A stretch of DNA of 64,000 nt from Planctomycetaceae bacterium (GCA_021732415.1 JAKFVC010000072.1:1-64000), one strand, 5' to 3'. Positions 25,401-58,054 are shown, counted from the stretch's first letter. Made by a program: numbers and translations. The notes: generated from the letters alone by a model not told the origin.

Positions 25401-28400
25401 TATTGACTGTCACCAGCGTATCAGTGAGCACAATGTCGTCGAACGCATTCAGGAATCCGACGGCATTCACCAATTCGCCCGACCCATAGCCCGCCAGGTT
25501 ATTGAAGATCGTGTAACCGACGGCATCTGCAACCGGATCGATGATCCCGTTTTCGGTCTGGCCATAGACGAACAGTTGATCGCCCACCGGGCCAGCCGAA
25601 CCGTTGCCGTCAACGAAGATACCCGCGGCATTGATCAATCCGGTGAAGCTGAAGTCAGCCTCGACACCGCCACCGGCAAAGCCCGGCAGGCTGTCGGCAA
25701 ACGCCAGCGGTTCGGCAGTGCTCTCGTACGGGTTGCCCCCGATGAATGCAGCGGCCGAATTCACGCCGACGGGCACCACGGTGATCTCGTCATCGGTCGT
25801 CTCACCGATGAGCGTCGCCACTGTGTCATTGCCGTTCGTGTCGTTGTACTGAATCGTTTCCGTGGTATCGATGTTCACCGGAATGGCGAAGCCCAGGATA
25901 TCCGTTTCAAAATCACCGCCAGCCGACCAGTCAAAGCTCAACGCGGTCACTGCACCGGCATTATTCACCGTCAACCGGTCACGATTGGCAGAATCAGCGA
26001 CCCCAGCGGGAGCATTTCCGTCACCACCGATGAGCAGAGATGTCGCCGTGATGTCGGCCGCCACGTTGAGAATGAATTCGTCATTTCCAGGTGCCGTAGC
26101 AAGCGCCGTCGTAAAGTTGCCTAGGGTATCGGTCACGTGAGCATCGTTGAACGTGTCACCCAGGAAGGTGTTGGCAGCGAGCAAATTGCTCCCCGCAATC
26201 GTGATGACATCGTTCCCGTCGCCACCAAACACTGTTGTGGAGACCGTCGCACCCGTTCCATCGACGTCAATCGTATCGTCACCTTGACCAGTGAAGATCG
26301 CCATAATGCCGACCGCGGTGTACTCGATCGTCTGCTGCGCGGGAACCGTCCGGGTGATAGTCGTCGCAGTCAGCGTCAACGAGTCGTCGACCGCGGGATT
26401 AGTCGCCTTGTTGGTGGTGTAGCCAACCTGGGCAATCGTATCGAGATTACCGCCGTTGGTTCCGTTGCCTGCCAAAGTCAGGTCGGTCAGCAAGACACCC
26501 ACGCTGACATTGGAGATTTCGAAGCCAAAATTACCGTTGTTGTTGGCAGTGACCGTATCCAGAGAAGCTGCGGCGACGCTATTGATGTCAATTCCGTCAT
26601 CGAAGTTGCCGTTGGCATTCACTGCCGACACGGTGTTCCCATCGTTGCCGATATAGATTAAGGCAGTGGGGGATGTGTCGACAAAAATGCCGTCGATCTG
26701 GCCACCGCCGGCAAAGGTATCACTGTAACTACCGCCCAGAATCACGATCGGTCCGGTGACGTTCGTAGCGTTGAACCCATTGCCAACAAAGTTGAAATCT
26801 GCGTCATTATCGTTGGCATTGTCGTCCGTCAACGTCACTGGTCCCGTGATATTGTTGACGTAGATGCCGCCATCCAGATTCTGGTTGACGTTACTTCCCG
26901 TAATGCTGACAGACGGAGCATTGTTGATCACGATGCCCGGGTCGTTCAGATTGGCTGTGACATTGGTGATCGTCACCGCACCAACTGTATCCAGATCGAT
27001 ACCATCTTCATCATTGCCATTTGCCACAACGGGCTGTGCCGCACTGCCAATCGTAATAGTTGCGTTTGGTGAGTTATTGGCATTGATGCCATCCTGCTGG
27101 GTCCCACCACCATTGTAGGTACCGCCAAGAATAGTCAGTGAAGTCGTGACGCCAAAAATTGAAGCTCCATTGCCCGCACCACCATCGTTCGCATCATTGC
27201 CAGACGCATTCACATCGGTCAGCGTGAGGTTGTCGAGCGTATCGAGATCCAGACCGTCATCATCGTTCAGCGTGAAATCGCCACCGGCCACATTCATATC
27301 CGTCAGATTGCCGGCATCGATACCGTCACTGCCGTTGGACTGGGCGGTCACGCTGGTCAAAGTCGTCAAACCAGTCACGTTGCTGAGGCCAATACCGTCC
27401 GACGCGTTGCCGGAATACTCACCATCGGTAAAGGTCACAGTCCCGTCAACTTGATCGATCGTCACGCCCTGCGTTTGGTTGCCATCCGCCTCCAGTGGAT
27501 CTACCGAGCCATTCAGCAACACGTTACCACCGACGCCCACCACGAAGATACCGGTGATCTGGCGAGTTCCCGGGTCGGCATGACCGGTCGTATCATCAAA
27601 CGTACCGCCATTCACCGTGAAGTCGCCGCCAATTGCGTTCACATTGTTGTTGGCGGTCGCGTGAACGCCGTCACCGACTCCCGTGTTGTTGCCGTCGTTG
27701 TCGTTAGCCGTCGTCCGCGTCAACGTCACGAAATCGGCAATGTCGATTAGCTGGATGCCGTGGTCGGCGTTGTTCGAGTACGTGCCGTCCGTGTCTGTGA
27801 AGGACGTGACCGTGTCGATCAGAATGCCGGGATCGTTGCCGTTGGCCTCCACGTTCGTGAAATCGACCGCGCCTGCATCAAAGATATTGACGCCCTCGCC
27901 AGTATTACCGTCGAACGTGCCCGCCAGGAAAGTGATATCAGCAGCATTACTGAGTTCGACACCATTATCCCCGTTGCCGCTCGCATCGACGCCATTCAAG
28001 GTCGTCAATCCGCCCGCGCCATTCAGATCGATACCGTCGAAGGTGTTTCCATCGAACCCGCTATCCCCAATGTCAACCGTTCCAGTGATCGCACCTGAGA
28101 CGTTCAACCCGTCCCCAATGTTGTCATTGGCGTTGACACCAACGACGTCCAGATTTCCGCCCACGTTCGCGGATACAATAAAACCCGAGCCATTATTGCT
28201 GGCATAGGTTCCACCAGTAATCGACAGATTGCCGCCGACCCCACCGAGGATCACGCCGTCACCGACGACACCCGCAAAACCCTGATTCCCCGTGACAACA
28301 TTGGAACCGCTGAACGTCGCGTCAACCGTCACAGTGTCGACGGAGACACCTCGAATCTGATGGGTGGTCGGATTTCCGAACCCGGTCGTGTCTCGGAACG

Positions 28401-43083: not shown

Positions 43084-43629
43084 CTATCTGATTCTCCAGC
43101 CACGTTTCTCAATCGTACGAAAATTGTCGCTGTCAGCCAACAGGATTAAATACGAGGCCAAACGCTCTAACTCCTGATCCCTTTGGTCGCCTTCAAACGC
43201 CCGGACGTAGATGGCATTGCCGTAATTGCGTTCGACCTTTTCCGGCGTGTCATCGACGATCAAGACTCGATTGAGGTCAAATCCCAGCCGACGGACCTTC
43301 TTGAGATCTTTGATCCAATAGTAGTCTTGCCATTCGGCATCGTACCGTCGAACACAACGTTCCTGCGACCACTGGAACTCCAATGTGATCGCTGCAGGAA
43401 AAATGCCGCGGGTAACGGCCGCCACATAGTCGCACGATGCTGACGACCAAACGGCCAGTCGATAACTGGCGACGACACTTGCGAGGAACTGATCGAGACT
43501 GGGGCGCTTGTAAACGAAGAACGGCCCGGCTCTGAAATCGTGAGGCCGCTCCAGTGCGCGACCCGTCCCATAGATGAGGGTCTCATCCAGGTCGAGGATC
43601 AGCAGCGGTTTATTCTCAACGCTCGGCAT
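43084..43629 (-). CDS. HAD-superfamily FCP1/SCP-like phosphatase
   Basis: The protein has about 181 residues from the ATG at 43629; a TTG at 43671 is possible. The NIF/FCP1 hallmark is clear: LLILDLDETL (catalytic DxDxT), KRPSLDQFL, LAVWSSAS, and VLIVDDTPEKVERN with the second Asp pair. This subfamily is best known for phosphoprotein phosphatases in eukaryotes and also occurs in bacteria with unclear substrates. The protein is cytoplasmic. It is flanked by a hypothetical gene (17 bases) and a transglutaminase-like gene on the same strand. Confidence 0.88.
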   Translation of the reverse strand: MPSVENKPLLILDLDETLIYGTGRALERPHDFRAGPFFVYKRPSLDQFLASVVASYRLAVWSSASCDYVAAVTRGIFPAAITLEFQWSQERCVRRYDAEWQDYYWIKDLKKVRRLGFDLNRVLIVDDTPEKVERNYGNAIYVRAFEGDQRDQELERLASYLILLADSDNFRTIEKRGWRIR

Positions 43630-43709
43630 TCTGGTCGGACACGATTTTATCCCACGAGTTCGCTCGAACAAATCGCGCAGTTAGGGAACAGCAACGTAGC
43701 GGAAGTCTG

Positions 43710-44468
43710 TTACGGCTTCGGCACTTCGCTACAGATCACCGTGAAGCCCGCCAGCGTATTGGGGCCAAACGTCGTGCTGATGGCAACATCTACCGCATCC
43801 CGGCCGCGGGCCATCAGGACTCGGCCGATTCTGGGTTTGTTGTTGCGCGGGTCGAAAGTGTACCACTGGCCGCCGAGAAATGCCTCGAACCAGCCGGCGA
43901 AATCCATGGGGCCGAACGGGGGCGTCAGGCCAATATCACCGAGGTACCCCGTGCAGTAGCGAGCCGGAATGTTCAGGCAACGGCAGAAGGCAATCGCCAG
44001 ATGTGCATAGTCCCGACAGACTCCGGTGCGTTCGTTGTAGGCTTCGAGAGCCGTCCGTGTCGCTCGCGCCATTGCGTAGTTGAACTTGATGTGATTGTGG
44101 ACGAAGTCGCAGACCGCCTGGACTCGAGCCCACCCCAGCGGCGTCGTGCCGAACTGCTTCCAGGCGATCTCTGACAAGAGATCGGTCTCGCAGTACCGGC
44201 TGGCCAGCAGAAACACCAAGGCGTCCGAGGGCAACTCCCAAACGGGATGCTGCACTGCGTTCGGAACCACGGGATCGGGGATTCCGTTCGAACGGACGAT
44301 CGCCGATGTGCTGATCCTGGTGCGGCCGGCGGGGGCCTCCAAACGGCTGCACCAGTTGCCGAACCCGTCGCGATAAGGGGTGATCATCAGCGGCGGGTTG
44401 GTGACTAACTGATCGGGAAGGACAACTTCATGGGCTTGGCTGTAATGGGTGTTAAGCATCAGCATCAT
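43710..44468 (-). CDS. transglutaminase-like cysteine protease-fold protein
   Basis: This 252-residue protein has no signal peptide. The N-terminal beta-domain (about 1-90) and transglutaminase core (about 120-225) match the COG1305 group. The Cys motif is ERTGVCRDYAHLAIAFCR. The position usually occupied by the catalytic His (H-A-W-x-E) reads A-G-W-F-E here, in PMDFAGWFEAFLGG; the Asp motif is YTFDPRNNKPRIGRV. The enzyme may use another His or be inactive, or this may be normal for the subfamily. Its function is probably peptide or isopeptide-bond cleavage. It sits in a same-strand cluster with the HAD phosphatase gene. Confidence 0.82.
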   Translation of the reverse strand: MMLMLNTHYSQAHEVVLPDQLVTNPPLMITPYRDGFGNWCSRLEAPAGRTRISTSAIVRSNGIPDPVVPNAVQHPVWELPSDALVFLLASRYCETDLLSEIAWKQFGTTPLGWARVQAVCDFVHNHIKFNYAMARATRTALEAYNERTGVCRDYAHLAIAFCRCLNIPARYCTGYLGDIGLTPPFGPMDFAGWFEAFLGGQWYTFDPRNNKPRIGRVLMARGRDAVDVAISTTFGPNTLAGFTVICSEVPKP

Positions 44469-44688
44469 GGGCGTCGGCTGGGGGCAGTCATAAATGAGTT
44501 CACAGCCGACTTTGATATAAATGATGGAGCTCGCTTTCGCCGTGATACGGCAATGAGAACGTGAGACAAACGCCCGACGGCAAAACCGCCGCAGTGCGTT
44601 CCGAGGACATACCTCTGTTGTTGCGAGCGCGCCTGCATCATACGCGTGACTGGCCCGGAAGAGGGGACAATTCCGCGATTATTCGCAA

Positions 44689-45420
44689 TTACGTCCGGCT
44701 TTGAGCACACGCCGCGACAAATCGCTGGATCAGATCGAAATTAAAAACTCCCTCCCCCCGTTCGGGATGCCACTGCACACCAAGATAAAACGGCCGCAGA
44801 GGATCGTCAATCGCCTCGATCACGCCGTCGGGTGACGCCGCCAGGACTCGCAAACGGCCGGGATCCTCGACCGCCTGGTGATGCGACGACACGACGGTCT
44901 CGCTGGCCAGGTCCGCATTCAACAGACTCACAGGAGCCCCCGTTGATGCGAGGAGTGCCGATGCCCTGATTCCGAGCACGACGCGATGGCGATGGTTCTC
45001 CTGGTGAACTTCGACCGCATTCGGCAGCGTATCCGGGAGGTGCTGATTCATACGCCCGCCCGCATGGAGCGCCATCAGTTGCATCCCCAGGCACACACCC
45101 AGCGCTGGCCGCTGCGGTCTCTGCGTTAAGGCATCCAGCAGTGCAAATTCGAAGGCCTGCCTCCGCGGGTCGATGCATCGGGACTGAGGATGCGCCGGGA
45201 CACCCAGATCCTCGCAGCGGGCATCGTCGCCGCCGGTCAGCATCAGCCCGTCGCACAGGTCGACGTAATGGGCCGCGAGCTCCATCTCTTGAGGCAGTAA
45301 CAGCGGCAAGCCACCCGCTTCAGCCACCATGCGGCTATAGGCAATGTTGCTTTCATATCTGCCGCTGGCAATGTTGCTATCGACGTTGTCGACCGTCACT
45401 CCGATTACGGGGCGATTCAT
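44689..45420 (-). CDS. peptidase C26 family gamma-glutamyl hydrolase (PuuD-like)
   Basis: The protein has 243 residues from the ATG at 45420; the frame is open to 45480, but the extension has no homologous look. This is a class I glutamine amidotransferase fold with nucleophile Cys110 in ALGVCLGMQL and the His218/Glu220 pair in VQWHPERGEG. RPVIGVTVD at the start and LMLTGGDD are typical of PuuD-type gamma-glutamyl-GABA hydrolases. It would hydrolyse gamma-glutamyl amides in the cytoplasm. No putrescine-pathway gene is adjacent, so the substrate is not assigned. Confidence 0.87.
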   Translation of the reverse strand: MNRPVIGVTVDNVDSNIASGRYESNIAYSRMVAEAGGLPLLLPQEMELAAHYVDLCDGLMLTGGDDARCEDLGVPAHPQSRCIDPRRQAFEFALLDALTQRPQRPALGVCLGMQLMALHAGGRMNQHLPDTLPNAVEVHQENHRHRVVLGIRASALLASTGAPVSLLNADLASETVVSSHHQAVEDPGRLRVLAASPDGVIEAIDDPLRPFYLGVQWHPERGEGVFNFDLIQRFVAACAQSRT

Positions 45421-45932
45421 GTGGTTCGTTTCCAGACAAAAGTGAGGGCAAACTAACAATAGAAAGACGGGGCTCACCAAGCCGTAGATTCAGGCGACTG
45501 GCTGGGTGGTAATCCGATTTCTATCTGATTGACCGGCGGACGTGAATCAGCGTCAGGGACTGAGACTAGTGCAAACCCGATTCCGCACTGGTCTCGTTAA
45601 TTGATTTTTGACAGAAAAATGGGCCGACAGAAAGAGGAGTCGCCGTGCCCCTGTTCAACAAAACGACCTTCGCTTTTTCTCTCGTAACATCTTTCTGTCA
45701 GCACAATGCACACTCAAACATGACGAAGCTGCAAGATTATTCGTCTTCGGCACGATTTTTGAAAAATGGCACTTTGAACACAGATTCTATTACCAGTGGA
45801 CACGCCATTTGTGATAACGTTTCGTTTATAGGTTCTTCCCGGGCCGCGTCCCCTCAACGATTTAGCGCTCGTTCCGAACAGGGCATCCTTTCCGGGAATA
45901 AGGAGTAAATTTCGCAAGTATCGATCTGACGA
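45421..45932. other. 512-base divergent intergenic region
   Basis: It separates the C26 hydrolase (minus) from the kinase/chemosensory cluster (plus). It is locally AT-rich around 45640-45830. Short ORFs of up to 87 codons are present, but none is convincing. An in-frame stop at 45927-45929 fixes the upstream limit of the kinase gene. Confidence 0.45.
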
Positions 45933-47387
45933 GTGGTTCGTCCTGAAACGGTGGGCATCGTGGGCGAGAAGAAGAATCTGGCAGTCGGCGATCAGTCGAC
46001 GAAGGCCGACACGGCCACTGAACGCAACCAGATGGACGTCACCTGCTTCGACAGCGGAGCCGGATCGACTGACGTAAAGCGATATGAAGTCGGGGGTTAC
46101 CTCGGCAAGTACCAGATCGTGGGCTACCTCGGACGAGGTGGCATGGGTGTCGTGTACCGCGGCTTCGATCCGCTGGTCGAACGCGATGTCGCGTTAAAGG
46201 TATTACCCTCCGGACTCTCCGTGAGTCCCCAAGCCCGGCAGCGATTTCTGGCCGAAGCACGCGCCATCGGCAAACTCAATCACCCCAACGCCACGGCTCT
46301 CTACGAGGTCGGCGAAACGGATGGCTCATATTTTCTCGCGATGGAGTTCGTCGGCGGCGGATCGATTGCCAATCTTCTCGACGAGCAAAAGTGTCCGGTC
46401 GAACGGGCCACGCGGTACCTTGCAGAAATCTGTTTTGGTCTGGCGGCCGCGCATGAGGTCGGCCTGATTCATCGGGATATCAAACCCGAAAACCTGCTCC
46501 GAACGTCTCGCGACCATATCAAGATCACCGATTTCGGACTCGCCAAGGTCCTGGATGCTTTATCCAGTTCGTCCCTGAAACTGACAAATCCCGGCAGCAT
46601 GCTCGGCACGCCACTCTATATGAGTCCCGAGCAATTCAGTGGTGGCGAGGTCGATTCCCGGTGCGATATTTATTCGACCGGTGCGACCTACTTGCACATG
46701 CTGACCGGCAAACCTCCGTATTCGGACTGCGAAAACCTCTCGCAACTGATGTATGCCCACTGCCAGAGACCCATTCCCGACCCTCGAGCCATGACCCCGC
46801 TGCTCCCCGCGGCCTGTACCGAAATCGTGCGGCGGGCGATGTCTAAGCGGCCGGAAGATCGCTACGAATCAGCCGATGATATGGCACACGCGGCCATGGT
46901 CTTGCTCGGGGAATTGGGAGGTACCGATGCCGTCTCGCTGTCCGATTCCCATCACGGGCTGGGAGACGCGCCGGCTCGCCTCAAGCTGTCCGGTTCAGCA
47001 ATTCGTCTCCAACCGACAACGATGTGGCTGGTGGAACCGTCACGCATGCAGGCCCGCGTGCTGCAGCAACATCTCACCGAATTGGGAGTCGCCCACATTC
47101 AGGTCTTCGCCACCATCGGCGAGACGATTGCAGGTCTGGCGGACAAAGTTCCGAGCGGCATCCTGTCAGCCATGCATCTGGATGACGGAAGTGGCGACGA
47201 TCTGGCAACACAAGTGCGGAAACATGCCCGCGGCTCAGCCATTCCCTGTTTTTTGATTTCCAGCAGTTCGTCAGATGCGGCGGCCGGCGCAAACGATCCT
47301 CACCGGCCACTAGTCCTGCAGAAACCAGTCACGAAAGAAATGCTCGCGGAGGTATTGAAGCGGATTGCCGCATTGCCGGCGCGATGA
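45933..47387 (+). CDS. Ser/Thr protein kinase fused to a C-terminal pseudo-receiver domain
   Basis: This 484-residue cytoplasmic protein starts at a GTG (45933); an ATG at 46032 is the alternative. A Hanks-type kinase spans about 58-325: LGRGGMGVVYRG, Lys89 in VALKVL, HRDIKPEN (180-187), DFG (200-202) and GTPLYMSPEQ. All catalytic residues look intact. After a linker, residues about 362-480 fold like a response-regulator receiver (MWLVEPSRMQARVL, FLISSSSS, LQKPVTKEMLAEVL). The conserved Lys464-Pro is kept, but the phospho-Asp position in ILSAMHLDDGSG is Ala or Met, so it is a pseudo-receiver. No transmembrane segment is visible. It is placed directly before CheA, which suggests crosstalk between Ser/Thr and His-Asp signalling. 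Confidence 0.87.
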   Translation: MVRPETVGIVGEKKNLAVGDQSTKADTATERNQMDVTCFDSGAGSTDVKRYEVGGYLGKYQIVGYLGRGGMGVVYRGFDPLVERDVALKVLPSGLSVSPQARQRFLAEARAIGKLNHPNATALYEVGETDGSYFLAMEFVGGGSIANLLDEQKCPVERATRYLAEICFGLAAAHEVGLIHRDIKPENLLRTSRDHIKITDFGLAKVLDALSSSSLKLTNPGSMLGTPLYMSPEQFSGGEVDSRCDIYSTGATYLHMLTGKPPYSDCENLSQLMYAHCQRPIPDPRAMTPLLPAACTEIVRRAMSKRPEDRYESADDMAHAAMVLLGELGGTDAVSLSDSHHGLGDAPARLKLSGSAIRLQPTTMWLVEPSRMQARVLQQHLTELGVAHIQVFATIGETIAGLADKVPSGILSAMHLDDGSGDDLATQVRKHARGSAIPCFLISSSSSDAAAGANDPHRPLVLQKPVTKEMLAEVLKRIAALPAR

Positions 47388-47636
47388 ACCAAGATTCGAA
47401 TCTGCATGTAGCGGAACGTCGTAAGACTTCCGCCGCATACGGAAAGACTTAAGAATTCCTACGAATTCTTCTACACCAGAAAACGGACGCAAGGAGGCGA
47501 ACGCGTTCCCCCGACACAACCTGATTTATTACTCGTCCACTGCCCGAACGCGTGCCGTGAGGTTGCGTGGACGAATTACAACACTGGGGCGGCAACCTCC
47601 CTGGGCTGCCGTGTTTTGTCTCGTCGGAGTGCGTCC
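47388..47636. other. leader between the kinase gene and cheA-like gene with hairpins
   Basis: In 249 bases, a perfect 8-bp stem AAGAATTC/GAATTCTT (47451-47470) follows a weaker stem around 47422-47450. There is no U-tract. It could be a processing or attenuation structure, or an internal promoter region. Confidence 0.4.
47625..47629 (+). promoter_or_regulatory. ribosome-binding site deciding the cheA-like start
   Basis: CGGAG lies 7 bases before the GTG at 47637, supporting that codon over the upstream TTG at 47616. Confidence 0.6.
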
Positions 47637-50558
47637 GTGGATCAATCGTTGTTACAAGAGTTCGTCCTCGAGTCGACTCATAGTCTCGAAAAGGTGGAGC
47701 AAGATCTTCTCGCCCTGGAACGGACGTTTGATGCGGCGGCCATCAACCGGATGTTCCGCGCCCTGCACAGTATCAAGGGGTCAAGTTCGTACCTGGGACT
47801 GCACACGATCGAGCGGTTATCGCACCAGGCGGAAACGTTGCTCGACCTGCTGCGGCAGCGCTTACGAGAACTGACTCCCGCCACGGTGGACGTCTTGCTG
47901 CAGTGCGTCGATCAGTTGCGCCAGATGCTGCAATTGCCCGATCACGGGGCGAGTGTTGATATCAACCCCACTGTGATGCGGCTGTTCGAATTCATCCGGG
48001 AACCCAGCGTCGAAGCCCCGGCCGACGAATCATCAGACGCCGATTTCACCTTGTCCGAACCGCTGCCGGCACCCGTCGAGCGCGCCACCGTTGATCGCAG
48101 CACCGTCGAATTAGAGCGTCCCTTGTCGAACAGCTCCGTTGCGCAAGCGATTCCACCCGGTTCCGGTGAGAGCCCTCTGGGACGCACCCTCATTTTAGAA
48201 CATGACGACGATCAGCATGATCGAAACGGGGGACGAGTGCTGGTCGCAGCAACAGCCCCGCCAGTCGCACTGGCGCCAGCCTTGCAATCGTTATCTGGCA
48301 GCCATAGTGGATTTACAACAACGCCCGCCGCCCAGGCGGCAGCTCGAACAGGGGCCGTCCCGCATGCAGGCAACGGCTCCGCGGCACCAGCAGGAGGGAA
48401 CGGCAGCTTATCCACACCGCCGACCGCGGCGCTCTCCGATTCGCGCGGTGACGAGCACCCCGCAGAAGAGAAAATGATGCGGGTGCGGGTCAAGTTCCTA
48501 GACGATCTGCTGCAACTCACGGGCAACATGGTGATGGCCCGCAACCAGTTGCTCAGCAAGTACAACTTCGCCGACGACCCCGCATTTGGCACACTGTCGC
48601 AGTGTGTGACCCAGGTCCATAAGACGATCGTCCAGACGCGCATGCAGCCGATCGGCACGTTGTTCGATCGGTGCGAACGCCTGACGCGAGACCTGGCCCG
48701 ACAGTTGGGGAAGGAAGTTGCGCTCGAAGTCCACGGCCGCGAATTGGAACTCGACCGAAGTGTCCTCGAAGCATTCTCTGATCCGCTCACGCACCTGTTG
48801 CGAAATGCTCTTGATCATGGCCTGGAAACGCCCCAGGAGCGCCAGGCCGCCGGCAAGACACGCGTCGGACATCTCAAACTGGCCGCCCGGCAACAAGGGG
48901 CAGAGATCATCCTCTCACTGGAAGACGATGGCCGCGGGATCGATCCCGATCGCATCAAGCATCGCGCCATCGAACGGGGTTTAATTACCGCCGACCAGGC
49001 CGAAACACTGCATCGCCGCGCTCTACTCGACTTTATCTTCCGCTCGGGACTTTCCACGCGCGACGAAGTCACGAGCCTCTCCGGTCGCGGAGTGGGGCTG
49101 GATGTCGTCCGTACGAATCTGGAATCACTCGGGGGTGTTGTCGAAGTCCAGAGCACAGTCGGGAAGGGCTCGGCATTCGTCGCTCGGTTGCCTTTGACGC
49201 AGGCCCTCGTCTCGTCATCGCTCATCTCGGCACTCATCGTCAAATGTGAGGAAGAACGCTACGCAATCCCGCAAACGGCAGTCGATGAGATCATCAAAGT
49301 CGACCCGCGCAGTGATCGCGACCGCATCCGCCGCCTCAATGGCCGGATGGTCTATCAATTGCGCGACACTGTGCTGCCTGTCGTCTCGCTCCGGTCGGTC
49401 CTCGGCGGAGGCGACGATACCCCCGAGGAAGAACACGTCGGCGAGCGGATCCTCGTGGTGATTCAGTTCCGCCAGCAGTTGTTCGGACTGCTGGTGGATC
49501 TGATCGTCGGCGTCGACGAAATCGTGGTCCGACCGCTGCCTCGGATGGTGAAAAACTGCGGCATCTTCTCCGGCCATACGGTGATGGGAGACGGACAGAT
49601 CGCGCTCATTCTCGACAGCGGCGGCATCGTTGACCGCGAACAACTCATATTCGCCGACGATACGCTCGGCACAAGCCTGCTGCACGGTGAACGCGAACAT
49701 GTCGAAGGCGATCAACGCCTGGTCGTCTTCAGCTATTCCGATACCGAACACTTCGCGATCCCCCTGGAAATGGTCTCGCTGATTGAACGGGTTGAACTCG
49801 ATGACATCCGCCGAGTCGGCGCACAGGAGTACGTACAAGTGATGCAACGGACCTTGCCGTTGTTGCGTCTGGACAGGGTGATGGGGGTCGGCGGCCTGCC
49901 GAAACTGGCGGAATCGTACGTCCTGGTCCCCGCCCGGGTCAGCTATCCGATTGCCGTACTGACGGGTCGCCGCGTCGCAGTGGTTGATGCGGTCGAGCAA
50001 TTCGAATCACGGCTCAGCGACGGTCAGGGGATGCTGGGCACGTTCATGCACGACAATAAACTGGTCATGCTGCTCGATCTGTACCGCCTCTTCGAGCGAC
50101 ACTCACCCGATCGGTTCCGCCTCAGTCCCGTCGAGCAGCGTCCCGCTCAAATCCTGCTCGCGGAAGACAGCCCCTTCTTCCAGAATTTGATTCGCAGTTA
50201 TCTCGAACATCCGCCGCGACGATTGACGGTCGTCAGCGACGGCGAGGAAGCACTGGACCTCTTGCGAGAGCATCCGGAAGATTTTGACGTCCTGGTCTCT
50301 GACATCGAAATGCCCAAAATGGATGGCTTTGAACTGGTACGCCAGATCCGCGCTGACGCCGCATTACGAACGCTCCCCGTCATCGCCGTGACGTCGCTGG
50401 CGACTCCCGAACATATCGAACGCGGACTGCGAGAAGGGTTCGACTCCTACCTCATTAAGATCGATAAGGAGCAACTCGTGTCGACGATTGACCGCTATCT
50501 GGAACGGGGAGCGCGCCATCGGGCCGCCTTCACGAGCGCGAGAAAGGGGAGCAACTGA
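47637..50558 (+). CDS. cheA: CheA-type hybrid histidine kinase with two CheW-like domains and a receiver
   Basis: The protein has about 973 residues. The N-terminal Hpt domain carries the phospho-His in MFRALHSIKGSSS (His44). An Ala/Pro/Ser-rich linker (about 120-280) occupies the place of P2. Then come the dimerisation helices and HATPase domain with intact boxes: LLRNALDHGLE, EDDGRGIDPD and SGRGVGLDVVRTNLESLGG. Two CheW-like domains follow (about 520-665 and 690-825), then a functional-looking receiver (ILLAEDSPFF, phospho-Asp889 in VSDIEMPKMDG, Lys in YLIKIDKE). The architecture is that of non-flagellar, alternative-function chemosensory kinases. It is cytoplasmic and overlaps the CheW gene by one base (TGATG), so translation is coupled. 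Confidence 0.93.
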   Translation: MDQSLLQEFVLESTHSLEKVEQDLLALERTFDAAAINRMFRALHSIKGSSSYLGLHTIERLSHQAETLLDLLRQRLRELTPATVDVLLQCVDQLRQMLQLPDHGASVDINPTVMRLFEFIREPSVEAPADESSDADFTLSEPLPAPVERATVDRSTVELERPLSNSSVAQAIPPGSGESPLGRTLILEHDDDQHDRNGGRVLVAATAPPVALAPALQSLSGSHSGFTTTPAAQAAARTGAVPHAGNGSAAPAGGNGSLSTPPTAALSDSRGDEHPAEEKMMRVRVKFLDDLLQLTGNMVMARNQLLSKYNFADDPAFGTLSQCVTQVHKTIVQTRMQPIGTLFDRCERLTRDLARQLGKEVALEVHGRELELDRSVLEAFSDPLTHLLRNALDHGLETPQERQAAGKTRVGHLKLAARQQGAEIILSLEDDGRGIDPDRIKHRAIERGLITADQAETLHRRALLDFIFRSGLSTRDEVTSLSGRGVGLDVVRTNLESLGGVVEVQSTVGKGSAFVARLPLTQALVSSSLISALIVKCEEERYAIPQTAVDEIIKVDPRSDRDRIRRLNGRMVYQLRDTVLPVVSLRSVLGGGDDTPEEEHVGERILVVIQFRQQLFGLLVDLIVGVDEIVVRPLPRMVKNCGIFSGHTVMGDGQIALILDSGGIVDREQLIFADDTLGTSLLHGEREHVEGDQRLVVFSYSDTEHFAIPLEMVSLIERVELDDIRRVGAQEYVQVMQRTLPLLRLDRVMGVGGLPKLAESYVLVPARVSYPIAVLTGRRVAVVDAVEQFESRLSDGQGMLGTFMHDNKLVMLLDLYRLFERHSPDRFRLSPVEQRPAQILLAEDSPFFQNLIRSYLEHPPRRLTVVSDGEEALDLLREHPEDFDVLVSDIEMPKMDGFELVRQIRADAALRTLPVIAVTSLATPEHIERGLREGFDSYLIKIDKEQLVSTIDRYLERGARHRAAFTSARKGSN

Positions 50559-51025
50559 TGCAAATCGTGACATTTGCCTCGGCAGGTGGAGTCCACGGTA
50601 TTCCAGTACTGGCCGTCGAAGAATTCTTCCGGCCGATCCCGCTGACACGCGTCCCGCTGGCCGACAAACGGATCGCCGGACTGTTGAATCAGCGTGGCAA
50701 GAGCGCCACGGTGCTCGATCTGCGCCAGTGCTTCCATCGCCCGACCGGCGAACCCGCACTCCATCCGAAGATGATTCTGCTGGAGACCGAAGACCATCTG
50801 ACCCCCGAGGCCCGCAGCATGGGAGTCCGGAGCTTCGCCGATCCGGTAGTGCTGCTGGTCGACCGGATTCTCGACATCGTCAACATCGACCGCAAGGATT
50901 GGCAACCTCGCCCCGCACATATTACTGAACAGTTTGTATCAGGCGTCGTCCGGCATGGCGACGGCTATATCTGCTTACTTGAGCTTCCTACATTGATCGA
51001 CGACATTTTTAGTCCAAAGGCCTGA
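50558..51025 (+). CDS. cheW: CheW-like coupling protein
   Basis: This 155-residue single CheW domain (VEEFFRPIPLTRVPLADKRI, GLLNQRGKSATVLDLRQCF, VLLVDRILDIVNI) would couple a sensor to CheA in the cytoplasm. Its ATG shares a base with the cheA stop and has GGGGAG upstream, so both are made at matched levels. The gene after it starts one base past its stop. A partner receptor with a methyl-accepting domain is absent from this window; the adjacent tandem Cache protein is the obvious candidate. Confidence 0.9.
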   Translation: MQIVTFASAGGVHGIPVLAVEEFFRPIPLTRVPLADKRIAGLLNQRGKSATVLDLRQCFHRPTGEPALHPKMILLETEDHLTPEARSMGVRSFADPVVLLVDRILDIVNIDRKDWQPRPAHITEQFVSGVVRHGDGYICLLELPTLIDDIFSPKA

Positions 51026-51026
51026 C

Positions 51027-53387
51027 ATGAGCACCGTTACTCAATCTCCCGTCGCCGCGCCGGCACACCGCAACGGCGACGCCCGCTTCAGCATCTTCAG
51101 CCCCGTCATCACGGTCGAACACCGCGAGTTCTACGAGAAGATCGTCTCGGAACTGAACGGTGTCTTTCCCATCTGTACCCAGGGGAAATGCACCGCGGTG
51201 GAAGTCAGCGAAGACGCCACCGAGCAGGAACAAATCACCGACCTGATGAAGCGCGTGGAGAGTTTTTCGGGTGAACTCCTTGAAGTCACGAAGCAACTTT
51301 TCGACCAGTTTTACCAAGCGAAAGAGCACTTCTGCCGGATGATCCACGGCACGACGGCGTACGTCAAAATCAATCTCATGGACCGAAACCTGCTGGAGCG
51401 AACTTGCGACGTCCGCTGGTGGGCACTCGAAACGGCCTTCAGTGATTGTATCGACTTGACGCAGAAGGTCCACGAACGACTGAAGCGACTGGTACCCATC
51501 GCCGGGGATTCCGCTGGCGGCAAGGCTCTCCGCAAGTGCCTCGAAAAAGTCCCTCGTTGGGAAATCGATGCCGAGACCAACTCGCAATTGCAAACCTGCC
51601 TCACAGGCCTGGCCAAGCAACTTCCCGAGAGCCACCGCGCCGAAGCGACGACTCTCGCCAGCGACGTCGTGCTCGTCCTCAAGAAGGCATCCTTCGCCTG
51701 CGACCGCCTGGAAGATATTAATAACTCTTATACACTCTACCGCGACATCGTCATCGCCACGAAAGACGGGACGATCATCGCGAATTCCAACCAGCAGACT
51801 CGCTCGCAGGTGCTGGGCCTGAACATCGCCGACGAGAACTGGTTTCAGAAGGCACTCGCCACAAAAGATGGAACCCAGTATCACGCGCAAGACTTGACTC
51901 AATCGCGACTCGAGACCGATCAAAGCCTGGTTTACTCGGCGGCCATCCGCGAGAACAGCGACAACTATGGCAAAGTCATCGGTGCCATGGGGGTCTTCTT
52001 CGATTTCCAGGGTGAAGCCCAGATGATTCTCGACGATCATATGGCGCGGGATACGGTCAACCAGAACCACGTCGACGACGGCTGGTTCTCATTCCTCACA
52101 AATTCCACGGGAACGGTCATCGCCTCCAGCGACGCAGGCATCATCGAGCCCGGGAAGATGCCGCACGTCTCACGCAAACATCGCACGCCGGCCGCGGGCG
52201 AACTGCCCATGAGCTACGCCGTCTTCGAAGGCCGCGAATCGGCCATTTTCTCCGCCCGCACCGACGGCTACCTCGACTATCCGGGCCTCGGCTGGTCATC
52301 ACACCTGATCGTACCCAAAGACCAGATTTTCCGGACCGCCACCGTCACCACACAACTGGGCATCAGCATCGACGATCTCATGCAGTCGCGCCTCGTCCCG
52401 GAAATTAATAAGCAGACGTTCGCTAAAGTGCAGGACGACAAGGAATCGATTCAGTTGATCTCGCTCAACGGCATCGTATTCGCATCCAAGCTGGGCAAGC
52501 GTGGCGTCGCACTCGGTCCGATCTTCGACCAGATCAAGCAAACCGGCGAATTCACGACGAGCAAGATGGAAGACTTGCTGAAGGAAATGGCGATCGGAGA
52601 ACTGCAACTCAACCTGCAGGCCCTGGAAAACTTCTCGAAACAAGCCATCGACTTGCTCGACCGCAACTTATTCGAGCGAGCCGCCGATATTCGCTGGTGG
52701 TCGACGGACCAATTCTTCTGGACGGCCCTGCGTGAACCCACCGCCGAGAATTTCCAGAAGGCAGCCCATCGGATGGAAGTCATCAACGGCTCCTACACAA
52801 TGTACCGCAATCTGGTCCTCGCCAATCGCAACGGTGAGATCGTCGCCAGCGCCAAGAGCGAGGACCGCAACAAGCTGCGGTCCATCAGCGTGTACGACGA
52901 CCCGTGGTTCCTCTCCGCAATGCGCACCACCAAGTCCAGCGAGTTCGCCGTGCAGGACGTGCAAACATCAAAACTCGAACCCCGCAAGGAACGCTCATTG
53001 ATCTATTCCGGCGGAGTCCGCGCCGGTGGCGAACGACAGGGCGACCCCATCGGCGTGGTCGGAATTCTCTTCGACTGGGATACCGAGGCCAAGAAGATCC
53101 TCAGCACGTGCCTCCCCAAGAACCGGGACGGAGAATCGATCGCCGGTTGCGCCGCGTTCTACACCAACTCCGACCACGAAATCATCGAAACCACCGACGA
53201 ACAGAATTTCCCAGTCGGCAACACGTTGGCGCTCCCCGCCGCACACAGTGCATTGAAGGCGGGCCAGTCAGCCTCCGGCCTCTTCGTGCATCAGGACAAA
53301 CGATATATCCTGGGGTCTTCGCGAACGAAGGGTTACCGCGAATACGCTGGATTGTCCTGGACGGCGCACGTCGTGCGGCCGATCTGA
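51027..53387 (+). CDS. soluble tandem Cache-domain protein
   Basis: This 786-residue protein has no signal peptide and no visible membrane segment, although Cache domains are normally extracytoplasmic. Two homologous halves are evident: MDRNLLERTCDVRWW (118-132) matches LDRNLFERAADIRWW (544-558), and INNSYTLYRDIVIATKDG (231-248) matches INGSYTMYRNLVLANRNG (586-603). Each half has the Cache-type pattern of a 'D.xWF..A' block followed by an 'SLxYSxxxR' strand. There is no HAMP, methyl-accepting, kinase or cyclase output domain. The first 110 residues are helical and Cys-rich (C50, C55, C103, C127). The ATG is 1 base after cheW, with AAAGG upstream. It is probably a cytoplasmic ligand sensor feeding CheW/CheA. 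Confidence 0.85.
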   Translation: MSTVTQSPVAAPAHRNGDARFSIFSPVITVEHREFYEKIVSELNGVFPICTQGKCTAVEVSEDATEQEQITDLMKRVESFSGELLEVTKQLFDQFYQAKEHFCRMIHGTTAYVKINLMDRNLLERTCDVRWWALETAFSDCIDLTQKVHERLKRLVPIAGDSAGGKALRKCLEKVPRWEIDAETNSQLQTCLTGLAKQLPESHRAEATTLASDVVLVLKKASFACDRLEDINNSYTLYRDIVIATKDGTIIANSNQQTRSQVLGLNIADENWFQKALATKDGTQYHAQDLTQSRLETDQSLVYSAAIRENSDNYGKVIGAMGVFFDFQGEAQMILDDHMARDTVNQNHVDDGWFSFLTNSTGTVIASSDAGIIEPGKMPHVSRKHRTPAAGELPMSYAVFEGRESAIFSARTDGYLDYPGLGWSSHLIVPKDQIFRTATVTTQLGISIDDLMQSRLVPEINKQTFAKVQDDKESIQLISLNGIVFASKLGKRGVALGPIFDQIKQTGEFTTSKMEDLLKEMAIGELQLNLQALENFSKQAIDLLDRNLFERAADIRWWSTDQFFWTALREPTAENFQKAAHRMEVINGSYTMYRNLVLANRNGEIVASAKSEDRNKLRSISVYDDPWFLSAMRTTKSSEFAVQDVQTSKLEPRKERSLIYSGGVRAGGERQGDPIGVVGILFDWDTEAKKILSTCLPKNRDGESIAGCAAFYTNSDHEIIETTDEQNFPVGNTLALPAAHSALKAGQSASGLFVHQDKRYILGSSRTKGYREYAGLSWTAHVVRPI

Positions 53388-53831
53388 TGCGCCCCCAGGA
53401 GGGATTCTCGGCAGTCCTGCAAATCAGATTAATCTGGCGACATCGCATTGATTCTTCTGCGAATCCTTATAGTTTTAGCTGCATTCATTCGCTGCCATCC
53501 TGGCTCATGCCGGCGTATGGTCCCGGCTTTGCTGGCCGCTGAATGTGTTTGTTAAATCGATGCTCCGGGATGGAAGTTTTCAAAACAAACTGATAGGCTC
53601 GCGCATCGGCTACTCAGTCAACCGGCAGTTTTTTGTGGCCGATCAGATCCCCACCAGGGCAGGCTGAAGTCGTTCTGAGACCGCTGTCGCGACCACGCGA
53701 GGCTGGCTCGTTGTGAACTGCACTCGGTTAACTACTCTGGGGCGAGTGCACCGGCTCCCCGTTGGTTTTGACGGGTGCGTTGAGCCGTCCGTTGAGTACT
53801 GGTTTTCGTCATTGGATTAGGAATTTCCGTC
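53388..53831. other. 444-base intergenic region
   Basis: No gene or clear repeat was seen after the chemosensory cluster. A short AT-rich stretch at about 53560-53600 may hold the sulfatase promoter. Confidence 0.4.
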
Positions 53832-55202
53832 ATGCGATCTCGTTGGATTTCGGCCTGCCTCCTGTGGGCCGCTTTCATCGCCGTTCAAAGTCTCTCTCTA
53901 GCTGCCATTTCTGCGGCCGAGAAACCCAATCTCGTGATCTTCTATGCGGATGATCTGGGGTGGGGAGAAACGGGTGCTTACGGTTGTAAGGATATTCCCA
54001 CGCCACATATCGATTCGATCGCGACCAACGGCATTCGGTTCACCCAGGGTTATGTCGCCGCGACTTATTGCAGCCCATCCCGAGCGGCGCTGCTGACGGG
54101 CCGCTATCCGACTCGGTTTGGCCATGAGTTCAACAGTGTTGCCGCCCGAAAGGGACTCGATCTCCATGAGACCACGATGGCGACTCGGCTGAAGGAATTG
54201 GGTTACGCTACCGCCTGCGTCGGCAAGTGGCATCTGGGCGAGCGACCCGAATATCGCCCGACGGCGCGCGGATTCGACGAGTTCTTCGGGACACTCGCCA
54301 ATACCCCGTTCTTCCATCCGACCAAATTCGTCGATTCGCGTGCTTCCGATGAAATTCAACAAATCACCGACGATGCATTCTATACGACCGACGAATACGC
54401 GGCGCGCTCGATCGACTGGATCGATAAGAACAAGTCAAAGCCGATGTTCCTGTATCTGCCGTTTAATGCTCAGCACGCTCCGCTGCAGGCCCCGCAGAAG
54501 TATCTGGACCGCTTCCCGAACATCACCGAGCCCAAACGCAAACTGTTCGCGGCCATGATGTCGGCGATGGACGACGGCATCGGCCAGGTAATGGCCAAGG
54601 TTAAGGAAATCGGTCAGGAAGAGAACACTCTCTACTTCTTCATCGGCGACAACGGTGGCCCGACCAACGGGACGACTTCGCAGAACGGCGGGCTCCGCGG
54701 CTTCAAGATGACCACCTACGAAGGCGGCCCGCGCGTGCCGTTTATCGCTCAGTGGAAAGGCAAGCTGGCACCCGGCAAGACCTATGATTTCCCGGTGGTA
54801 AACTTCGACCTGCTGCCGACAATTATCACGGCCGCCGGCGGCAAAGTGGATCCTTCATGGAAGTTGGATGGCGTCGACCTGATGCCGTACCTGACCGGCA
54901 CCATCAAGGGACGTCCGCACGAGACTCTCTTCTGGCGATTTGGTGATCAATGGGCCATCCGACAGGGAGATCTCAAATTGGTTGTCTCGAAGGGAGGGAG
55001 CGGCAGCCCCGAACTTTATAACCTCGCGACCGATGTCAGCGAATCCAATAATCTGGCGCCAGCGCAACCGGACAAGGCGAAAGAGCTGCAGACGATCTGG
55101 AAAAAGTGGAGCGACAACCAGGCCGAACCCAGCGTGCCGGATGCTCCCGCGAATCCGAAGAAGGCCAAGAACAAAAAGAAGAAGGCAGCTGACGACGAGT
55201 AG
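53832..55202 (+). CDS. secreted formylglycine-dependent sulfatase
   Basis: This 456-residue protein has a signal peptide (about 1-29). The type I sulfatase features are complete: metal Asp pair FYADDLGWG (Asp40, Asp41), the formylglycine motif C80-S-P-S-R84 followed by AALLTGRYP, GKWHLGE, and the C-terminal metal block FFIGDNGGPTNG. It hydrolyses sulfate esters, probably on algal or other sulfated polysaccharides, in the periplasm or outside. It needs a formylglycine-generating enzyme encoded elsewhere. The last 20 residues are very Lys-rich (KKAKNKKKKAADDE), which is unusual. It is followed by a long palindrome. Confidence 0.95.
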   Translation: MRSRWISACLLWAAFIAVQSLSLAAISAAEKPNLVIFYADDLGWGETGAYGCKDIPTPHIDSIATNGIRFTQGYVAATYCSPSRAALLTGRYPTRFGHEFNSVAARKGLDLHETTMATRLKELGYATACVGKWHLGERPEYRPTARGFDEFFGTLANTPFFHPTKFVDSRASDEIQQITDDAFYTTDEYAARSIDWIDKNKSKPMFLYLPFNAQHAPLQAPQKYLDRFPNITEPKRKLFAAMMSAMDDGIGQVMAKVKEIGQEENTLYFFIGDNGGPTNGTTSQNGGLRGFKMTTYEGGPRVPFIAQWKGKLAPGKTYDFPVVNFDLLPTIITAAGGKVDPSWKLDGVDLMPYLTGTIKGRPHETLFWRFGDQWAIRQGDLKLVVSKGGSGSPELYNLATDVSESNNLAPAQPDKAKELQTIWKKWSDNQAEPSVPDAPANPKKAKNKKKKAADDE

Positions 55203-55241
55203 ACCCCAAAGTATATTCCCGGTGGCGTCAGCCCCGTGGTC

Positions 55242-55295
55242 CCGTGGCAGACGCTGCTAGCGTCTGAGATCCGACGCTGGCAGCGTCGGCCACGG
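55242..55295. repeat. intergenic inverted repeat, 'GACGCTG' family copy 3
   Basis: Arms of 25 bp (55242-55266 and 55271-55295, three mismatches) are each themselves palindromic around GACGCTG-GCAGCGTC. It is closely related to the repeats at 7821-7872 and 31282-31300 and lies 40 bases after the sulfatase stop. Confidence 0.9.
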
Positions 55296-55415
55296 TGGTA
55301 AGCCATCGACTCGGACATTGACGAATGGAGTCGGCCAAAGCACACTATTGTTGCCGACTCCATTTTGTATTTCCATCCGATCGTCCAGCGCGAAGATCGC
55401 GCACTCACTGTCGAT

Positions 55416-56024
55416 ATGCAAATCAACCTCATCGACGTCGCCAAAGTCAGTGCGGCCTGGGTCATCGCCACGACTCTGGTGATCATATGGATTCATCTGA
55501 CTCGCCCAGCTGCGATTCCACGTACAGCCTACAGTGCGTTCGTGATCGGGGTGCGACTGCTCTTTCTCTACTCCTTTTCATACGCGTTTTTCAGCATCTG
55601 CCTCGGCGTTCCGGTCAATGCCCTGCTGATCATCTCATCGCTGATTCTCGCGGTGACTCCTCTGGCAAGACTCGACATGAACCCCGGGAACGATGAACTA
55701 AGCGTGGCCATCGGCCTAATCGTCATGGTTCCCATCTATATCCTCAAACAACTGGTTCTTGGCTTTCCGGATCACGATGAAGTCATACTGATCCCACCAA
55801 CGCATTCTGGCCCTCATGATTTGTCCCATTTGATTCAAGCGGTTGGATCGGTCACGGCGACGCTCAGGCCGTCAGGCAAAGTCGAAGTGGCCGGAATAGC
55901 CTACTCCGCCACGACCGCCGACGGAAAGTATCTCGACCAAGGTACGCAGATTCGAGTCTCTGGAGTTCGCAACGGCACGCTGATCGTCACGGCAGTACCG
56001 CCACTCGAACAACGTTCGGCGTGA
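55416..56024 (+). CDS. NfeD-like membrane protein
   Basis: The protein has about 202 residues from the ATG at 55416; a TTG at 55365 would extend it. Three to four hydrophobic helices (about 5-110) are followed by a soluble C-terminal OB-fold of the NfeD type (GSVTATLRPSGKVEVAGIAY, YLDQGTQIRVSGVRNGTLIV). NfeD proteins usually partner with membrane SPFH/flotillin proteins or serine proteases; neither is next to it here, so the partner is elsewhere. It is probably involved in membrane-domain organisation or quality control. Confidence 0.78.
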   Translation: MQINLIDVAKVSAAWVIATTLVIIWIHLTRPAAIPRTAYSAFVIGVRLLFLYSFSYAFFSICLGVPVNALLIISSLILAVTPLARLDMNPGNDELSVAIGLIVMVPIYILKQLVLGFPDHDEVILIPPTHSGPHDLSHLIQAVGSVTATLRPSGKVEVAGIAYSATTADGKYLDQGTQIRVSGVRNGTLIVTAVPPLEQRSA

Positions 56025-56191
56025 CTAAAGTAGAGATGTGACGGTCGGCTCGATTGCGTCGGACCGGAGAAAGGACTTCAATAGGGTCTGTTCTCACATT
56101 CAAGGCCATCACTCGACCGCTCCGGGAATGGTTGGTTTCGCTGACACATCCGGTCTGAACTTGTTCGGACAGCCCTCTCGCGGATCCTTTC

Positions 56192-58054
56192 ATGCAACAC
56201 TCCCCCTCAGGTCGGTGGCTGGTTAGGTTGGCGACAATCGCATTGTTTGCGAATTGCTTGCTGCTCAGTGGATGCTCCTCCGAAACTCAGCCCCCAGTCG
56301 GTACTCTGCGAGCCGACGAGAAAGTGATCAAGGGGCAACCCGCTCCTTCGGCAGGTCCCGAAAAAGGGACAGTTCCGGCGTCTGGCGATCAGGCTTCCGA
56401 TGTGATCATCGTCGGCGCGGGGATCTCGGGATTGTCCGCAGCGCTGGATCTCGGGCGAGGCGGCGCGAAAGTCACCGTGATCGACATGGCCTCTGTATTT
56501 GGCGGCCACGCCGTGATGTCGCAGGGGAGTTTGAGCATCGTCGCCACGCCGACTCAAAAGGCGGCCGGGATCAAGGATTCACCGGATCTGGCGTTTCAAG
56601 ACTTTCATCGCTGGGGTGAAGACCCTGCAACGGATTGGGTGCGCTATTACGTCGACAACTCAAAACGCGACATCTACGACTGGGTCGACGAGCTCGGCGT
56701 GCGATTCTCCGAAGTGCTGGCATCGTCCGGAAACTCGGTTCCGCGTGAGCATCAACCCATCGGCCGCGGCATCGGGCTGGTCACGCCGATTTATCGCACG
56801 TGCCTCGAACTGGGTACGATCGACTTCTTGTGGAACAGCAAAGTTGTGCAGTTGCTGACGGTCGATCGTCGCGTGATCGGAGTGCTGGTGCGTGATGTGC
56901 GGACTGGTAGCGAACGTAAGCTACTTGGCAAAGCGGTGATCCTGGCCACGGGAGGATTTCAAAACAACCTCGACATGGTCCGCGAATTCTGGCCCGCCGA
57001 GTTTCGCTTTCCCGAACGCATTCTGGCGGGATCGGGGAAGAACTCGATCGGGCTGGGACACCAGATGGCAAAAGCGGTCGGCGGTGATCTCGTGAAGATG
57101 GACCATCAATGGAATTATTTCACCGGCCTGCCTGATCCACGCTCACCCGGCAGCAATCGTGGACTGAATGCGACTAATCTGTATGGGATCCTGGTGAACT
57201 CCGGGGGCCAGCAATTCGTGAACTTTCACAGTTGGGCGAAGGAGGGGACTCCTGCGTTGCTGAAACAAAAGCACGCCACCTGTTGGTGCATCTTCGATGA
57301 GGCCAACAAACACAACTTCAACGTCTCTGGCTCTGACTGGGCCGACTTCAAGAAAGTCGACAAGCTGATCCTGCAAGACCCCAAGTTGGTCAAACGAGCC
57401 GACACGATCGAGAAGCTGGCGGAACTGTCGGGCCTTCCGGTGCAGAATCTGGTGGCCACGATCGCCCGTTACAACGCACATGTCGAACAAGGTGAGGACA
57501 AGGACTTCGGCCGGTTTGGACCGGGTAAACCCGCGTTTTCGAATAAAGCCTCCCCCAAGATTGCAACGCCCCCGTTCTATGCCATGCAGACCTATCTGCT
57601 GACCCGTAAGAGCATGGGCGGCGTGGCCATCGACCTTAATTGTCGTGTGCTGGATAATCAGAAGCAGGCCATACCCGGCCTGTATGCCGTCGGAGAATTA
57701 GCCGGCCTGGCAGGTATCAACGGCAAGGCGGCACTCGAAGGAACGTTCCTGGGGCCGTGCATCGTGACTGGTCGGGTCGCAGCACGCACGCTCTTGAAGG
57801 AACTCCAAGTGACTTCGACTCCTGGGGCCATCCACCAATCACGCTGCACAGCATGCCATGACATGCCAAAGTTGCTGGCTCAACCGCGCGAAGGATATTG
57901 GCACTTCGAAGGAGTCCATCGGGCGGCTCAAGAACGCGGCTTCGACTGCCGGTTCTGCCATAGCGAGTTGACGCCATATCGCCCCGACAGCCATCGGATC
58001 AATCGGCAATCATTGACTGCCAGTTGTGTGCTGTGTCACACAGCGCAAGAGTAG
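56192..58054 (+). CDS. lipoprotein FAD dehydrogenase/flavocytochrome c with C-terminal triheme tail
   Basis: The 620-residue protein starts with a lipoprotein signal ending LLSGC (Cys28). The FAD-binding Rossmann motif is VIIVGAGISGLSAALDL (71-87), and the fold throughout is that of the FrdA/succinate-dehydrogenase family (KAVILATGGFQNN, GLYAVGELAGLAGINGKAALEG). At the C-terminus are three c-type haem motifs: CTACH (552-556), CRFCH (586-590) and CVLCH (612-616). Shewanella-type fumarate reductases carry the haems at the N-terminus, so the order is reversed. The usual H-T-M-G-G and Arg substrate positions read K-S-M-G-G and Lys, so fumarate is an unlikely substrate. It is an exported, membrane-anchored electron-transfer dehydrogenase of unknown substrate. 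Confidence 0.85.
   Translation: MQHSPSGRWLVRLATIALFANCLLLSGCSSETQPPVGTLRADEKVIKGQPAPSAGPEKGTVPASGDQASDVIIVGAGISGLSAALDLGRGGAKVTVIDMASVFGGHAVMSQGSLSIVATPTQKAAGIKDSPDLAFQDFHRWGEDPATDWVRYYVDNSKRDIYDWVDELGVRFSEVLASSGNSVPREHQPIGRGIGLVTPIYRTCLELGTIDFLWNSKVVQLLTVDRRVIGVLVRDVRTGSERKLLGKAVILATGGFQNNLDMVREFWPAEFRFPERILAGSGKNSIGLGHQMAKAVGGDLVKMDHQWNYFTGLPDPRSPGSNRGLNATNLYGILVNSGGQQFVNFHSWAKEGTPALLKQKHATCWCIFDEANKHNFNVSGSDWADFKKVDKLILQDPKLVKRADTIEKLAELSGLPVQNLVATIARYNAHVEQGEDKDFGRFGPGKPAFSNKASPKIATPPFYAMQTYLLTRKSMGGVAIDLNCRVLDNQKQAIPGLYAVGELAGLAGINGKAALEGTFLGPCIVTGRVAARTLLKELQVTSTPGAIHQSRCTACHDMPKLLAQPREGYWHFEGVHRAAQERGFDCRFCHSELTPYRPDSHRINRQSLTASCVLCHTAQE

Follow-up and report, generated by a model that had tools for sequence, protein, structure and literature searches.

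What serves as the receptor in a chemosensory locus that encodes a CheA and a CheW and no recognized methyl-accepting chemotaxis protein (MCP)? The question is raised by positions 45933-53387 of a 64,000-nucleotide stretch of DNA from a Planctomycetaceae bacterium (GCA_021732415.1 JAKFVC010000072.1:1-64000; the whole stretch is referred to as the window), where four open reading frames (ORFs) lie on the + strand in the order kinase, CheA, CheW and tandem Cache protein. An earlier note on this DNA had described a receptor-less circuit, in which Cache domains replace a chemoreceptor and a Ser/Thr kinase takes part. Judged by homology, the tandem Cache protein is instead a divergent soluble chemoreceptor with a recognizable but altered MCP tip. 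The last three genes quite probably form a self-contained cytoplasmic chemosensory unit with this protein as its receptor. The genes and the parts of the Cache protein are as follows, each with the evidence for it:

45933..47387, + strand: Hanks-type Ser/Thr kinase with a C-terminal pseudo-receiver, a lineage-specific accessory gene (Pfam; acceptor Asp replaced, ILSAMHLDDGSG; distribution)
47637..50558, + strand: hybrid CheA (Pfam; CheW positions; motifs read from the sequence; start codon; clade)
50558..51025, + strand: CheW, 155 aa, with a 1-base overlap with cheA (Pfam, 2.7e-22; sequence)
51027..53387, + strand: predicted soluble chemoreceptor, 786 aa, a helical hairpin plus dCache domain twice over, without a transmembrane (TM) segment (Pfam, dCache_1 twice; AlphaFold2 [AF2]; fold matches; hydropathy)
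51114..51422, + strand: hairpin 1, residues 30-132, ending in DRNLLERTCDVRWW, with no detectable MCP tip (AF2; no profile signal)
51693..52316, + strand: dCache 1, residues 223-430 (Pfam; AF2)
52401..52700, + strand: hairpin 2, residues 459-558, putative altered MCP tip (pairwise alignment to annotated MCPs; hidden Markov model [HMM] test; AF2 turn; conservation)
52437-52526, + strand: tip core of hairpin 2, residues 471-500 (pairwise alignment; HMM test; AF2 turn at 489-496; conservation)
52794..53384, + strand: dCache 2, residues 590-786 (Pfam; AF2; fold match)

The second half of the Cache protein carries the evidence for a chemoreceptor. Residues 457-784 align by pairwise BLAST with annotated single-repeat soluble MCPs, with no gap through the tip, which reads IQLISLNGIVFASKLGKRGVAL in the window protein and VKMLALNALIEAARAGEQGRGF in the annotated MCPs. 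These partners, from Methylobacterium currus (WP_269154015.1) and Burkholderia stagnalis (WP_060148510.1; E value of 7e-34), are plasmid encoded and score 9.7e-17 and 1.7e-15 against MCPsignal; a search of plasmids returned no full-length copy of the Cache protein. Planctomycetes also have single-repeat relatives, of about 340-420 aa, with a partial MCPsignal domain (the tip) ahead of the Cache domain; as a set, these match canonical MCPs with a probability of 99.2% (E value of 1.5e-19). The second half of the Cache protein aligns over its full length with an HMM built from 14 short soluble receptors (8e-65). When the tip segment alone is shuffled, the score against this HMM falls: for 8 of the 13 family members, none of 200 shuffles reaches the real score, and for the rest no more than 4 of 200 do. 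The receptor-less reading was rejected because both the HMM test and the pairwise alignment show the second half, tip included, to be homologous to MCPs.

The architecture of the protein is a duplicated one. Pfam recognizes two dCache_1 domains (8.5e-17), and AF2, run with 16 sequences, predicts a single chain in which hairpin, long helix and dCache occur twice, with a mean predicted local distance difference test score (pLDDT) of 82.7 and a predicted template modeling score (pTM) of 0.78. The turn of hairpin 2 in this model (489-496) coincides with the MCP turn position. The predicted model matches DctB (3by9) with a Z of 19.7 and a root mean square deviation of 2.4 over 227 residues, and together with Pfam this match indicates the double Cache fold of dCache sensors; the Foldseek and VIA matches listed are taken up by dCache domains, and the helical part is barely covered by the fold comparison. 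A sequence search of solved structures gave no useful match. The protein has no TM segment by hydropathy (19-residue maximum of 1.17), in line with the soluble, cytoplasmic sensor proposed in the earlier note. Folded alone, hairpin 2 is predicted with low confidence (pLDDT of 67, pTM of 0.35). This drop and the pTM of the whole chain fit an intramolecular bundle, and the protein is probably folded as a covalent pseudo-dimer. The chain thus modeled holds two hairpin-dCache repeats and a recognizable MCP tip in hairpin 2 alone. In hairpin 1, the stretch LNG...GK (residues 43-54), picked out by eye as a second MCP tip, was rejected, as it has no profile support and the AF2 turn lies elsewhere (61-63). 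Hairpin 1 does carry a highly conserved motif, ELNxxxPxCxxGxxxA, with an invariant C50 (window 51147-51200, residues 41-58).

The ORF coordinates and junction sequences bear out the earlier description of four genes in a row on one strand, the last three of them coupled. The cheA and cheW genes overlap by 1 base (TGATG), and a 1-base gap separates cheW from the Cache gene. The kinase gene lies ~249 bp before cheA, so that tight coupling is limited to the other three genes. Overlaps of a few bases at the CheA/CheW or CheW/Cache junction recur in several related loci, which places the coupling above chance. Neither the four-gene stretch nor the neighboring genes scanned (43084-58054) yielded a gene with PF00015 or one for CheR, CheB or CheY. 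The lack of an MCP, CheR, CheB and free CheY noted earlier therefore holds at the locus, by Pfam, but not for the host genome (9.9 Mb, 98% complete). Two complete che clusters on other contigs each contain an MCP, CheA, CheW, CheB and CheR, one of them with a free CheY, which makes the absence purely local.

The CheA of the unit is a hybrid kinase. Its reading frame spans 47616-50558, and the GTG at 47637, which has GGAG upstream, is a likelier start than the start of the frame at 47616. Pfam delimits the following domains:

47649-47924, + strand: Hpt
to 49199, + strand: dimerization/HATPase
49230-49640, + strand: CheW-like P5
49740-50099, + strand: second CheW-like domain
50151-50489, + strand: C-terminal receiver

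The translation shows that the Hpt histidine motif (HSIKGSS) is conserved, as are the ATP-binding motifs and the receiver Asp and Lys.

The CheA, CheW and Cache genes stay together well beyond this genome. A search of about 85,000 species genomes returned 15 relatives of the Cache protein, and CheA and CheW adjoin the Cache gene in 13 of them. The trio is hosted by the window genus, Zavarzinella formosa, planctomycete and unclassified metagenome-assembled genomes (MAGs), Desulfobacter vibrioformis and Chitinispirillum, and its adjacency spans Planctomycetota, Desulfobacterota and Fibrobacterota. The synteny across Planctomycetota that the earlier note had proposed to look for is conserved there and in further phyla. 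Two Methanolobus loci among the 15 lack CheA and CheW, and SZUA-421 has a second, paralogous trio in the order Cache-CheA-CheW. The three-gene module is rare and its distribution patchy: the Cache protein, at full or nearly full length, occurs in about 9 of the 392 Planctomycetota genomes sampled, in 1 of 297 genomes from the Desulfobacter phylum, in 1 of 168 from the Chitinispirillum phylum and in 8 of 186 genomes of the order of Methanolobus. In the MAG GEM2.Bin49 (L022:8001-10428), the Cache gene is split between its halves into two overlapping frames, which may reflect a frameshift, an assembly error or a two-chain version. In Desulfobacter vibrioformis, a REC-REC-GGDEF gene (L014:10139-11401) follows the trio by about 17 bases. 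This suggests a cyclic di-GMP output for that trio, and outputs may thus differ between hosts.

The trio also has a CheA lineage of its own. The 12 trio CheAs form one clade (support of 97/100) that leaves out the two other CheAs of the host, the other family CheAs sampled and the SZUA-421 paralogue. The sensor tree is congruent with the CheA tree, showing the same groups, and, in conflict with the species tree, it groups two sequences from Planctomycetaceae with those of Desulfobacter, Chitinispirillum and Methanolobus. From these trees, CheA and sensor appear to be co-inherited and to have moved between phyla together. The synteny in several phyla and the single CheA clade agree with the earlier view that the sensor is tied to one CheA/CheW pair.

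The most conserved stretch of the Cache protein is the tip, residues 471-493. In seven trio lineages, 22-23 of these 23 residues are identical to the window protein, at an overall identity of 56-62%. This number is 16-17 of 23 in the Methanolobus orphans (54% overall) and 14 of 23 in the SZUA-421 paralogue (53% overall), which is paired with a different CheA. Moreover, when 742 sliding windows of 23 residues are ranked by how well they separate proteins with a trio CheA from the others, the best 12 all fall within 467-505. Since the tip is conserved with the trio CheA and diverged in orphans or beside another CheA, it is the likely site of CheA/CheW contact; of the indirect indications of such a contact, which include the synteny, this one is the strongest.

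We infer the following scheme, from the pseudo-dimer and its contact with CheA and CheW to the cytoplasmic ligand, the direction of signal flow and the phosphate route. The tandem Cache protein would descend from soluble MCPs in which a tip hairpin precedes a C-terminal dCache domain. A small molecule in the cytoplasm would bind one or both dCache domains, and the long DRNL(F/L)ER helices would carry the signal to the altered hairpin 2 tip. There, contact with the private CheA (P5 or the second CheW domain) and with CheW would set CheA autophosphorylation, and CheA would then phosphorylate the receiver fused to it, which would serve as a sink or a relay. Methylation-based adaptation is probably absent, as the unit has no CheR, CheB or free CheY.

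Several observations weigh against such a unit. Even at an E value of 10, Pfam MCPsignal (PF00015) finds no match in the window protein or in 11 relatives. In profile comparisons with canonical MCPs, tip 2 alone aligns in the right place, yet not beyond shuffles, and hairpin 1 shows no MCP tip. The tip of hairpin 2 is aligned with and homologous to accepted MCP tips, with its hallmark residues partly lost: by the ungapped alignment and in Tsr numbering, E385 corresponds to F485, E391 to K491 and GF to AL. Eight Methanosarcinales genomes (L019, L020, L144-L149) encode the Cache protein as an intact full-length ORF, and no CheA or CheW was found within the flanks examined at these loci (about 8 kb for most). 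These orphan copies indicate that the trio is not obligatory; the methanogen orphan receptor is apparently of bacterial origin. Finally, the host and every one of the 14 relative genomes tested have other MCPs, which in principle could feed the trio CheA as well. The blindness of Pfam to the tip and the lack of significance of tip 2 out of context explain why the locus looked receptor-less.

These points bear differently on the alternatives. A model without any receptor, in which the Cache protein feeds CheA/CheW as a new kind of non-MCP input and the kinase is an integral link to phospho-Ser/Thr signaling, draws on the lack of a Pfam MCP domain in the Cache protein and on the same-strand kinase gene upstream here and in Zavarzinella. 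We regard it as very improbable, given the MCP homology of the second half with its tip and a kinase that is missing from the other trio loci compared and has equivalents flanking ordinary che clusters. The ordinary MCPs in every genome tested and the orphan copies related to Methanolobus would suit a scaffold or modulator plugged into arrays of the host's own MCPs instead of the only receptor of a private circuit; DosM in V. cholerae offers a precedent for such a role (PMC7534058). However, the tip follows the CheA clade private to the trio and not the MCPs, and that clade is separate from the ordinary-cluster CheAs of the same genome, leaving a scaffold role unlikely.

Concerning the kinase, its gene matches Pkinase (8e-46, about 46110-46889) and, below threshold, Response_reg (about 47016-47381). 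The phospho-acceptor Asp of the pseudo-receiver is missing in the window genus and in Zavarzinella, the only two to have the kinase beside the trio among the trio loci compared, several of which end upstream of or within CheA. In the host, a Hanks kinase with an Asp-less receiver-like C-terminal domain lies near each of the three che clusters, directly upstream of cheA in two. These pseudo-receivers have in common a motif around M.L.D.(S/T)G, and the kinases at the ordinary clusters are found at L074:9532-11136 (contig C175) and L075:7959-9920 (contig C257), the latter with one extra true receiver. Within this lineage, the kinase-pseudo-receiver accompanies che clusters generally, and this distribution led us to reject it as a core component, contrary to the place in the circuit that it had been given. 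It is possible, if doubtful, that the kinase acts as a general che accessory, with CheA or a receiver docking on the pseudo-receiver to gate the kinase and give the output. This would be compatible with the three-gene unit and would account for its recurrence, with the shared Asp-less motif, at all three host clusters and in G036 (two loci), G009 and Zavarzinella, but of the family's 40 other che loci only three (L094, L103, L126) have such a kinase, and it is lacking from the majority of trio loci.

Elsewhere in the window, positions 19414-29754 on the - strand hold a single ORF of 3446 aa with calcium-binding-like GGxGxD repeats and C-terminal VCBS/FG-GAP-like repeats, which probably encodes a giant secreted surface protein.

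The closest known proteins are the single-repeat soluble MCPs with a C-terminal dCache domain (M. currus, B. stagnalis and planctomycete L005-L008). They share the order of tip hairpin, DRNLYERxCDxRWW helix and dCache, and show direct pairwise homology with residues 457-784 of the Cache protein. In contrast, they have one repeat rather than two and an intact tip (EAARAGE.G.GF), and the neighbors inspected mostly lack a CheA/CheW pair, with the exception of G413, where a CheA adjoins the receptor. Single-chain chemoreceptors are known both from nature (in R. centenum and a few other organisms) and as engineered Tsr~Tsr fusions (PMC4692393). Like the putative pseudo-dimer, they place two receptor units in one polypeptide, the natural ones being soluble, but they join MCP signaling domains, whereas each hairpin of the Cache protein has its own C-terminal dCache domain and one tip is recognizable. 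DosM of V. cholerae, like the putative pseudo-dimer a single receptor chain with two signaling units in a cytoplasmic system, has two true signaling domains at opposite ends of a rod that spans two CheA/CheW layers (PMC7534058); nothing in the Cache protein, with its one recognizable tip, shows this geometry. The Che3 system of R. centenum resembles the trio in its CheA-receiver fusion and its cluster without flagellar genes, and the tethered receiver of CheA3 can act as a phosphate sink (PMC3868531). However, Che3 has an MCP, CheR, CheB, CheY3 and a second hybrid kinase, of which the trio has none besides its altered receptor.

The novel features are the tandem hairpin-dCache architecture, the reworked tip, a CheA clade private to the trio and its occurrence in several phyla. 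The papers searched contain no account of a C-terminal Cache receptor in the cytoplasm and none of a Ser/Thr kinase-che link in planctomycetes, neither of which is proof of absence. The balance is even on whether these proteins represent an undescribed receptor class, namely, a methylation-free, single-chain soluble pseudo-dimer with a tip only for its own CheA and CheW, passed between phyla as a three-gene module and with an orphan branch in methanogens.

Chemoreceptor censuses based on the MCPsignal profile miss this Cache protein family, and CheA clusters called receptor-less may hide receptors. Consisting of a single soluble receptor chain with one CheA and one CheW, the compact three-gene unit would lend itself, as a minimal system, to the reconstitution of CheA control by a receptor. 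In addition, an altered tip that changes together with the CheA clade would provide a natural experiment on the tip residues that specify the partner.

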